DNA of 64,000 nucleotides from Sphingomonas naphthae (GTDB taxonomy: Bacteria; Pseudomonadota; Alphaproteobacteria; Sphingomonadales; Sphingomonadaceae). The position numbers and the translations under genes are program-made. The notes beneath the pieces were generated by a model. That model had not been told where the DNA came from and ran no database searches. It was given only the letters and a program-made list of their open reading frames with translations. Where the stretch lies: positions 1,550,001 through 1,614,000 of the forward strand of contig NZ_CP117411.1 of assembly GCF_028607085.1 (NCBI RefSeq). Reading direction: 5' to 3'. Position 1 is the first letter of the stretch; each line of letters starts with the position of its first letter. Shown one piece after another: positions 39,817 to 45,615 of the stretch.

Positions 39817-40257
39817 CTAGCCGCCCCAAACCCACATTAGGCTGACCGCGACGGCGCCGAGCAGGGCCGTGCGGAAGATAATGATCGAGATACGCTCTAT
39901 CGCGTCATGCCGGTTATGCCTCCCGTCTGGGGGAGCAAGCGGCCCGCCGATATTAGGGTCGGGCTGCGGCTCCATGGTGCTGGGAGCCGCATCTGGCGGG
40001 GGCGGTGGGGCAGTGGGGAGGGTGATTTTGCGAGGGGGGTTTTTATCCCCCCATCCCTCAGCGTCAGCGAGTATCTGAGCGGCGTGGCGGCGAGCGACGT
40101 TGCCCAGTTTTTCACGCGCCGAATCGATCCGCTTGTTCACCGAACCTTCGGAAATGTCCTCAAGATACGCGATCTCGATGCTCGTTCGGCCAAGATAGAC
40201 GTGACGCAGCATCGCCTTCTCGCGCGGCGTCAGCCTGTCAACTCGATCATCCGCCAC
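39817..40257 (-). CDS. LuxR-type HTH protein with C-terminal membrane anchor
   Basis: 146 residues. N-terminal GerE/LuxR HTH: RLTPREKAMLRHVYLGRTSI, EIAYLEDISEGSVNKRIDSA, REKLGNVARRHAAQIL. A Pro-rich linker (PTAPPPPPDAAPSTMEPQP) leads to one transmembrane helix ISIIIFRTALLGAVAVSLMW. A membrane-tethered DNA-binding protein of this layout is typical of sphingomonads. First gene of the leftward set. Whether the HTH is released by proteolysis is unknown. Confidence 0.75.
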   Translation of the reverse strand: MADDRVDRLTPREKAMLRHVYLGRTSIEIAYLEDISEGSVNKRIDSAREKLGNVARRHAAQILADAEGWGDKNPPRKITLPTAPPPPPDAAPSTMEPQPDPNIGGPLAPPDGRHNRHDAIERISIIIFRTALLGAVAVSLMWVWGG

Positions 40258-40712: not shown

Positions 40713-40991
40713 TCAAAGGCCGGCGGCTTTCCGCACCGCGTCGTTGATGCGCGTCTGCCAGCCAGGTCCGTCCGCGCGGAACCGCTCCAGCGCATCCTTG
40801 TCCAGCCGGAGGCTCACCCGTTCCTTGTTCGACGTGGCGGAGCCGACCGGGCGACCGCGCCCACGCTTGCCGAAGGCGGCGAGAACCTCCGGCGACAGCA
40901 CCTCGGCGGCGGGCCGGGCGCGGGCGAAATCCTCTTCCGTCCACTCGGGGTTGTCCTCGTCGAATACGATGGGGGGCTTATCAGAGGCCAT
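40713..40991 (-). CDS. brnA: BrnA antitoxin
   Basis: 92 residues. The C-terminus RVSLRLDKDALERFRADGPG, WQTRINDAVRKAAGL is the ribbon-helix-helix DNA-binding part of BrnA. The N-terminal part (DNPEWTEEDFARARPAAEVL) wraps the toxin. It binds BrnT and the promoter for autoregulation. It overlaps brnT by 11 nt on the same transcript with the toxin first, the usual brnTA order. Confidence 0.85.
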   Translation of the reverse strand: MASDKPPIVFDEDNPEWTEEDFARARPAAEVLSPEVLAAFGKRGRGRPVGSATSNKERVSLRLDKDALERFRADGPGWQTRINDAVRKAAGL

Positions 40992-41244
40992 AGCGGCTCA
41001 TCTCCTTTTCGTGGGCGCGACGGTAGCTGATCGCGCGGACTGCGGTAGCGGTGACGGTGAACACGAGGCAGCGGCCCTCGCCATCGACCCGCGCGAAAGC
41101 GCGCTGGCGATCCTCACCGTACTCGCGGCGATCGTCAGCAACGACGACGGCGGAGGAAATCGGGAAGAGCCCCGCGTCGGCGAGCGACAGGCCATGCTTG
41201 GCGATGTTCGCTTCGTTTTTGGCGGGGTCAAATTCGATGTCCAT
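40981..41244 (-). CDS. brnT: BrnT ribonuclease toxin
   Basis: 87 residues: MDIEFDPAKNEANIAKHGLS is the invariant BrnT opening, then the fold through GRCLVFTVTATAVRAISYRR and AHEKEMSRYG. BrnT toxins are RelE-like ribonucleases that inhibit translation. The pair could stabilise the prophage or abort competing phage infections. No ribosome site precedes the ATG, and a promoter fits so close that the mRNA may be leaderless. Confidence 0.87.
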   Translation of the reverse strand: MDIEFDPAKNEANIAKHGLSLADAGLFPISSAVVVADDRREYGEDRQRAFARVDGEGRCLVFTVTATAVRAISYRRAHEKEMSRYGL

Positions 41245-41298: not shown

Positions 41299-41310
41299 GA
41301 AAATAGAACA

Positions 41311-41431
41311 CGTCCGTTCGGCTCCGGCCGGACGGGGGTTCCGGGCTGGCACCCGGAAACCGACGGACCAGAGATCCGTCACGCGCGGCTGGCCTAGCCG
41401 CAACGCCCCGCACCCGCGCAACGGGCGGGGC
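41311..41431 (+). ncRNA. Array of five hairpins upstream of mom-like gene
   Basis: Stems: CGTCCG/CGGACG (41311-41334); GGTTCCGGG with CCCGGAAACC, one bulge (41337-41361); GACGGA/TCCGTC (41362-41380); GCGGCT/AGCCGC (41385-41401); GCCCCG plus CCCG with CGGG plus CGGGGC (41405-41431). They are almost adjacent and end 20 bp before the mom ATG. No tRNA fold and no terminal T tract. Reads as a structured 5' leader or an independent RNA; which one is unknown. Confidence 0.5.
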
Positions 41432-41451
41432 ATGTGTGAGCATATTTCCCC

Positions 41452-42216
41452 ATGGAGTCTCGATTCGCGTTCAACACCCCGTCGGCTTTCGTCGGCGGCG
41501 CTGCCGGCGAACCTGCCGGATACCTCTTCGACCCCGCCGATTTGACCGGCCGCCGCGAGGCGATCGGCTTTGGCGAGGCCGACTTTCACGTCCGTCTGCT
41601 CGATCGCGAGATCGCCAACGGCATCGTGATCGCCCACCACTACAGCCGGCGCGTCTATCGCGCGTCCACCCTGCACCTTGGCGTCTGGATCGGCGGGCAT
41701 CTGCTCGGCGTGCTGCAATACGGCTATGCCATGAACCCGGCATCGGCTGGCAGCGTCGTCACCGGCACGGCCATGAACGAATACCTCGAACTCAACCGCA
41801 TGTGGCTGGCGGACGAGGCGCCTCGCAACAGCGAGAGCCGGGCGTTGGCCTATTCGATCCGGTTCATTCGCCGCGCCCGGCCGGCGGTGAAGTGGCTGCA
41901 ATCGTTCGCTGACGAGCGGTGCGGGCTATTCGGCACCGTGTACCAGGCGGCCGGCTTCACCTTCCATGGCGAGCATCTCGGGCGCTTCTGGGAGCTGGAT
42001 GGCGAATGGTATCACGACAGCCTGATGACGAACGGCCGGACGGCGACCAGCCCGCGCGCGGCGCACCTGCGGGCGAACCGCGATCGGGCGACGAAGCACC
42101 TGCTGCGCCAGTTCCGCTATCTGCGCTTCCTGAAGCCCCGCTTTGCCAAGGGGTGCCGGTATCCGGTGAAGCCATTCCCGAAGCCCGACTATCGGGGTGC
42201 CGAACCGATGACATAA
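41452..42216 (+). CDS. mom: Mom-like DNA modification protein
   Basis: 254 residues. Motifs of the Mu Mom family in order: HHYSRRVYRASTLHLGVWIG (61-80), LGVLQYGYAMNPASAG, VTGTAMNEYLELNRMWLADE (104-122), APRNSESRALAYSIRFIRR (123-141), KWLQSFADERCGLFGTVYQA (147-166) and WELDGEWYHDSL. Mom has a GNAT-like fold and converts adenine to N6-methylcarbamoyl-adenine, protecting phage DNA from restriction. All blocks seem intact. No com gene is recognisable beside it, so control must differ from Mu. Two GANTC (CcrM) sites lie in the first 15 bases of the gene. Confidence 0.82.
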   Translation: MESRFAFNTPSAFVGGAAGEPAGYLFDPADLTGRREAIGFGEADFHVRLLDREIANGIVIAHHYSRRVYRASTLHLGVWIGGHLLGVLQYGYAMNPASAGSVVTGTAMNEYLELNRMWLADEAPRNSESRALAYSIRFIRRARPAVKWLQSFADERCGLFGTVYQAAGFTFHGEHLGRFWELDGEWYHDSLMTNGRTATSPRAAHLRANRDRATKHLLRQFRYLRFLKPRFAKGCRYPVKPFPKPDYRGAEPMT

Positions 42217-45595: not shown

Positions 45596-45615
45596 CACCC
45601 CATCCGCCATTTGCC
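45596..45615 (+). repeat. attR core (20 bp)
   Basis: CACCCCATCCGCCATTTGCC, identical to attL at 1046-1065. The left flank is phage DNA; the right flank leads into the DUF5990-like gene. It contains only the last bases of tRNA-Ser, not a second tRNA. Confidence 0.92.

Follow-up and report, generated by a model that had tools for sequence, protein, structure and literature searches.

The prophage and the array ahead of its mom gene

The window, by which we mean the whole stretch of 64,000 nucleotides of Sphingomonas naphthae DNA analysed here, contains a prophage with the terminase and portal of tailed phages. At one end a tRNA (972-1056) is adjoined by a gene at 1217-2482, which we read from its letters as that of a tyrosine integrase. 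A 20-bp direct repeat lies at the end of the tRNA gene (1046-1065) and again downstream (45596-45615), and its two copies are likely to be attL and attR of the prophage that bears mom. We take the prophage not to be Mu-like, as the integrase-like gene next to the tRNA and the att-like repeat both speak against it, although the Mom protein still belongs to the Mu Mom family. This protein of 254 aa, encoded at 41452..42216 on the + strand, is a DNA modification enzyme of the Mom family (PF25680, 225.6 bits; phrog_1384). On the other strand, and divergent from the leader of mom, is a BrnT/BrnA toxin-antitoxin pair (40713-41244), and at 39817-40257 (- strand) is a small prophage protein with GerE/sigma-region-4-type matches, a possible regulator. 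Small divergent pairs resembling toxin-antitoxin genes were found by reading at the same place in L002, L005, L115, L124, L126 and L132, and BrnTA is annotated beside dam in a plasmid of Rhizobium rhizoryzae (L283).

The leader itself is a structured RNA at 41308..41431 of the + strand, with bounds drawn from a covariance model and the fold. It consists of five consecutive paired stems, designated P1 to P5, the last paired base of which is 20 nt from the mom ATG at 41452. The preliminary description had reported five consecutive stems ending 20 bp before this ATG, and they were recovered exactly there. P1 (41314-41322/41327-41335) has 9 bp, with a conserved outer CCG/CGG and an apical part of variable length. 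P2 (41336-41345/41352-41361), with 8 bp in the MFE structure, carries a 6-nt loop that reads CTGGCA in the window and most frequently CGTCAA, CGCCAA or CTGCAA among the copies described below; its 3' side includes a conserved unpaired A, and it is the site of most of the strongest covarying pairs in the RNA. P3 (41362-41367/41375-41380, 6 bp) is of the type GACGRG...CYCGTC with a variable loop, and P4 (41383..41404) has a core of 7 bp (41385-41391/41395-41401) and a probable outer extension of two pairs. P5 (41405-41414/41423-41431, 9 bp) reads CCCCG(CA)CCCG...CGGGCGGGG, contains a 2-nt bulge, and has its base 20 nt 5' of the start codon. The hairpins are set 0-4 nt apart. The linker that joins P5 to the start codon holds TGTGAGC (41435..41441), a purine-rich and putative Shine-Dalgarno (SD)-like stretch, and the start codon stands in the context ATGGAGTC (41452..41459), which is common to the Mom and Dam genes found behind the leader. 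A closing helix P0, pairing the 5' end with bases after P5, is present in the window fold; it lies outside the 70 strongest covarying column pairs and was left out of the structure.

Taken alone, the fold energy is only moderately unusual for DNA this rich in G+C. Folding of the 181-nt region gives -82.7 kcal/mol, the mean for shuffled sequences being -71.7 (z -2.5; 2/200 shuffles equal it), and the energy of the 128-nt core is matched by 7 of 998 tiles of 128 nt on the + strand of the window and by 13 on the - strand. A promoter scan found no sigma-70-like promoter between 41180 and 42350, and a terminator scan no intrinsic terminator at the window leader. The decisive evidence for the reality of the array is, on sequence grounds, its conservation and not its energy.

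Conservation and distribution of the RNA

Copies of the RNA were sought with three covariance models, of which R1 was built from the first alignment of eight sequences, R2 from 33 sequences and R3 from 79 copies. The window scores 150, 137 and 130 bits with R1, R2 and R3, respectively (41308-41454, + strand), values that are high by construction given that its copy is in the training sets. R1 gave matches, some of them doubtful, in 29 of the 397 genomes of the window's family, and R2 gave matches in 13/296 genomes of the order, 8/385 of the class and 11/398 of the phylum, samples that overlap and that each include the window's own genome. A search of viral contigs with Mom relatives placed the array before mom in the six closest of 80, in five by direct reading and in the sixth (L005) by the model at 36.4 bits. 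The more distant 74 of these 80 loci have no such RNA, and the 404 kb around them, used as a negative control, returned 0 matches at E<=1 with R2 and with R3. Among 94 loci picked solely for a Dam relative, a choice independent of the RNA, the coding strand bears the RNA immediately ahead of Dam in 51 at E<=0.01, and R3 adds 9 more at the same threshold. A scan of genome contigs with a single Dam protein supplied 5 loci. Named phages also carry the RNA directly before dam, as in the Sinorhizobium phages StopSmel (34.9 bits with R3) and Aussie (32.7 bits) and the Rhizobium phage RR1-B (31.9 bits); a marginal R3 match lies before dam in the Microcystis phage Mwe-Yong1 (19.3 bits, E 0.011).

The set used for comparison, A5, draws on 82 sources with 79 matches at E<=1e-6. 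Before A3 and A5, four of the 35 family places (L145-L148) were dropped, one as tRNA-like by its letters and the others as unlike the model by eye, together with L143, which is partial, and L116, which duplicates L001; L142 and L144 stand outside A3 and inside A5. Doubtful matches that were not counted as RNAs are L152-L154, L162, L163 and L272, the last scoring 27.8 bits before a gene that looks by eye to be of transporter type. L169 and L171, as repeats of L164 and L166, were kept outside the scans.

The preliminary description had set compensatory changes in homologous loci as the test of the array, and the outcome is strongly positive. In the 79 aligned copies, an alignment that was fitted to the covariance model and on which the covariation counts rest, 25 of the 33 pairs have changed on both sides while 93.5% of cells remain paired. 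Cells with changes on both sides number 366, against a shuffle mean of 108; the score is reached in 0/500 shuffles, no shuffle attains any of the five covariation measures, and covariation is lost when the partners are slid by 1-3 columns. Compensatory changes were already present in 9/33 pairs of the first 8 sequences, which were aligned by MAFFT and given their own RNAalifold structure. A scan of all columns against all others, with an effective 74 sequences, placed its nine strongest pairs inside the structure, and two more, at A5 columns 156-215 and 157-214, extended P4. Outside the stems, conserved letters include the A that follows P2, the AC that follows P3 and one C of the P5 bulge. 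It is this record of compensatory change that identifies the array, as far as comparison of sequences can do so, as a functional RNA and not a run of chance hairpins.

Genes behind the leader and the distance to their start codons

The element is not confined to mom. A D12 adenine methylase lies behind most copies and com behind some, and Mom is the enzyme of the window and its close relatives. A Mom or Dam gene follows within 2.6 kb in 69/79 copies, a set fetched in part through Mom or Dam, and in 27/37 of the copies found through the RNA itself, the window included. The Dam proteins belong to the D12 class of adenine methylases (PF02086 for the query) and have no meaningful similarity to the Mom proteins by blastp (best E 1.8). 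A usable start codon was found in 65 of the 69 leaders, with L131 omitted by hand because Com and Dcm intervene, and in all 65 the end of P5 lies 15-27 nt from it; as start codon we took whichever in-frame candidate lay closest to 21 nt, a choice that favours a narrow spread. The linkers contain an SD-like 4-mer in 58/65 cases, and ATGGAGTC occurs exactly in 24/65 leaders, comprising 6/7 of those before Mom and 18/58 of those before Dam. What was found is a conserved structure at a fixed distance before a start codon, as in a leader RNA. The genes upstream are co-directional in 52/77 cases and divergent in 25/77. Several of the co-directional ones code for about 350 residues, and these we take, from sequence, to be the portal gene of P2-like phages.

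The likeness to an inhibitory leader of the Mu type that the preliminary description implied was not borne out by the predicted folds. Compared with 142 control genes of the same loci, the leaders leave the ribosome-binding region slightly more open, with mean accessibilities of 0.47 vs 0.40 at the SD and 0.51 vs 0.40 at the start codon; the window leader has 0.58 and 0.51 at these sites, against control means of 0.40. Sequestration of the start site was looked for and is not seen in these folds.

The identity of the enzyme and the history of the leader do not run in parallel. On a tree of the RNA (124 columns, poorly resolved), the seven Mom leaders do not form one clade and are interleaved with Dam leaders; the Mom/Dam label changes 5 times on the best tree, at least 2 of these changes are forced by well-supported branches, and the AU test gives p 0.028. 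Over the P2-P5 core, the window leader shares 90% and 91% identity with the Dam leaders L117 and L182, and 84%, 84% and 86% with the Mom leaders L003, L004 and L001. Such interleaving indicates, at the level of the tree, that unrelated enzymes have been swapped behind one leader.

Ten of the 79 copies have no Mom or Dam relative behind them. L140 and L160 precede Dam remnants, and by reading a transposase-type frame comes next at L115. At L142 (RNA 2159-2293, - strand) what lies behind is a small frame, a product weakly matching both ABC-ATPase and GNAT, and another of formyltransferase type, which together possibly constitute an undescribed DNA-modification set. L127, L128, L136 and L141 are copies without a Mom or Dam relative and without explanation. 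Finally, at L135 and L144 the RNA lies immediately behind the stop codon of a gene from a Ser/Thr-rich host protein family, which has no NCBIfam match. L262 and L263, two copies additional to the 79, are placed in the same way, and at none of these four loci does a start codon come after the RNA. A search of 118 genomes for this family was positive in 4, that of the source included; in three of those genomes (L261, L262 and L263, not L264) the RNA lies behind the host gene, as it likewise does in L144.

Com is the regulator associated with mom in phage Mu, and the preliminary description had noted that no com-like gene is visible here. A PF10122 search agrees, with no Com in the window's genome nor in 28 of the 29 RNA-bearing genomes. 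The sole positive, L131, has the RNA, Com, a cytosine methylase and Dam in that order. Outside the host's class, the RNA lies directly before a Com-like reading frame at 8 loci in 7 genomes; seven of the eight frames score above the PF10122 cut-off, and in the eighth (L268) half of a Com continues into a cytosine methylase. Next in line are Dam (5 loci), Mom (2) or a cytosine methylase (1). As the RNA is directly before Com at these loci, with the enzyme behind, it goes with whichever gene opens the unit, whether or not Com is present. By tblastn, the 94 Dam loci contain one clear Com, in L244, which is without the RNA, and a chance-level match in L165; the 74 Mom loci contain one clear and one marginal match. 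By reading, small proteins with paired CxxC motifs unlike Com adjoin the RNA-dam unit in L118, L119 and L123.

In Mu, as described in PMC6483171, the mom start is exposed by Com, which attaches to a hairpin next to an inhibitory structure lying 5' of that start, and the core motif of Com from SELEX is CC(N)2-3GAG. The window system resembles com-mom of Mu in that a phage DNA-modification gene is associated with RNA structure near its start and in that the enzyme is of the Mom family, and some relatives of the leader have com beside dam or mom. It differs in that the Mu structure is inhibitory and opened by Com, whereas here the array precedes the first gene of its unit, the start is not predicted to be hidden and Com is usually absent; moreover, phage Mu has com-mom, and model scans of it found no such RNA. 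Pseudomonas phage B3 is alike in that its com and dam overlap and in that com is preceded by a stretch of the same size that is rich in hairpins. Its match to R2 before the annotated com-dam is weak (12.9 bits, E 0.05 and 0.016 in two scans) and is not reported by R3 at E<=0.1, and B3 differs further in that the window is without com. JD024 and UMP151 look like B3 by eye only.

A candidate switch for phage DNA modification

The timing of DNA modification matters to a phage: modification that comes too early may burden the cell, and modification that comes too late leaves genomes packaged unprotected against restriction. The textbook answer to this problem is Com of phage Mu. The RNA described here probably controls when phage DNA-modification genes are made. 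For the window, the reading we prefer, with a probability of roughly 0.6, is that 41308-41431 is a cis-acting structured leader in the mom mRNA that controls translation of the first gene of its unit. Action on translation initiation is suggested because the spacing from the start codon is kept whichever gene follows; a distance that is constant across unrelated genes, combined with indifference to the upstream context, points to this step. The compact array would thus stand at the 5' edge of the ribosome landing site, where a bound factor, most likely encoded by the host, would decide whether ribosomes load, either helping or hindering them, and the synthesis of a modification enzyme that is potentially harmful or costly would be delayed until late in infection. 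A platform for such a factor is favoured because the predicted folds do not hide the start, and a host factor is the likelier kind because the RNA is found beside a host gene as well and can do without Com.

A broader proposal is more tentative, and we hold it somewhat less probable than its negation: that phage DNA-modification operons throughout the Proteobacteria have this previously undescribed RNA class as their common leader, a portable element that is read by a host factor, that will combine with any modification enzyme (Mom, an adenine or a cytosine methylase, possibly the ABC-ATPase/GNAT/formyltransferase set), that dispenses with Com, and that a host gene family has adopted as a 3' element.

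Several other readings of the array were weighed against control of translation initiation. It might instead be a constitutive insulator or stabiliser of the mRNA, shielding it from nucleases or blocking ribosomes that arrive from upstream, with no response to any signal. In 31 of the 52 co-directional cases the RNA starts between -14 and +12 nt from the stop codon of the upstream gene, it is also found behind the stop codon of a host gene, and the leaders fold at a mean of -66.6 kcal/mol, far below the -49.9 kcal/mol of control leaders, all of which would suit such a role; a mere roadblock, however, would have no need of conserved letters in loop, bulge and spacer, nor of near-restriction to DNA-modification units, and we regard it as unlikely. 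A transcription attenuator, or an antitermination element acting in the nascent RNA as does the put RNA of phage HK022, would account for closely packed hairpins, alike in outline, at the head of a unit that is placed after late genes. Against this, a T-rich stretch (at least 5 T in 8) follows P5 in just 4/79 copies, there is often one short gene behind, and the distance from P5 to the start codon is maintained, which control of transcription would not need; this reading is decidedly improbable. No better are the prospects of a stand-alone small RNA that lies before the gene by chance. The host-gene copies at L135, L144, L262 and L263, with no start following, are what it would predict, and the fixed distance to the start codons of unrelated genes (65/65) and the ATGGAGTC context that Mom and Dam have in common are what it leaves unexplained. 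The preliminary description had offered a translational switch, a target for an RNA-binding protein or a stand-alone RNA; the first two fit the constant place of the array before unrelated start codons, and the third fits poorly except for these few host-gene copies.

Two further readings have very little probability. One holds that the leader is a binding site for Com acting in trans, as in Mu. Com genes behind the RNA at the 8 loci outside the class and at L131 lend it some colour, as does the occurrence of the CC(N)2-3GAG core in 52/79 leaders vs 35.2 +- 4.9 in mononucleotide shuffles, a crude control. It is nonetheless highly improbable when PF10122 is present in 1/29 RNA-bearing genomes and Mu has com-mom without this RNA. 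The other, that the array acts as DNA, through protein-binding repeats or a cruciform, and not as RNA, is harder still to credit. Inverted repeats can serve as DNA sites, and a strand-choice count of the paired columns, with 67 G-U vs 96 A-C cells, does not favour the coding strand as the RNA, an A-C excess that we think is partly one mismatch kept in many copies (A5 columns 124-153). Yet neither the orientation nor the distance to the start codon changes, and the stem sequences vary freely with their pairing kept.

A leader that controls translation initiation would bear on two questions. With Com lacking from nearly all of the leader-bearing genomes examined, a conserved RNA at the place of control is a testable candidate for the timing of DNA modification. 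In addition, its sequence and structure provide a signature by which phage DNA-modification (anti-restriction) genes may be found, including ones not yet recognised as such.

Searches of Rfam 15 with the window leader and 50 related loci returned no family above the gathering cut-off at the leader, the only hits being tRNAs elsewhere, and at higher E-values scattered chance-like matches with none consistent at the leader. A similar element is the D12-methyl RNA motif, reportedly put forward by Weinberg et al. in 2017 as a candidate for cis regulation of the D12-class methylase genes that it precedes; both are structured RNAs upstream of D12-class DNA methylases. Unless it proves identical with this motif, the RNA described here is previously uncatalogued. 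No description of the RNA was found in the literature, within a limited coverage of subscription papers, and the passages available from PMC10085705 and PMC3091744 do not describe it.

At the edges of its distribution the RNA has neighbours of uncertain kinship. The phage and host records of the class L274, L276, L278, L282, L283 and L284 have hairpin-rich stretches before dam, in which R3 reports no match at E<=0.1. Another conserved leader, with GCGCGCGTAGCCGACGTG-like letters and unmatched by the models, lies just before dam in L183, L184, L236, L237, L250 and L257. The leaders of L173, L178, L229, L249, L256, L258, L275, L277 and L279 have CCCGNC..ATAACCGTCGCAxCCG-like letters in common and are perhaps a divergent branch of the same RNA; three of them, L275, L277 and L279, match R3.
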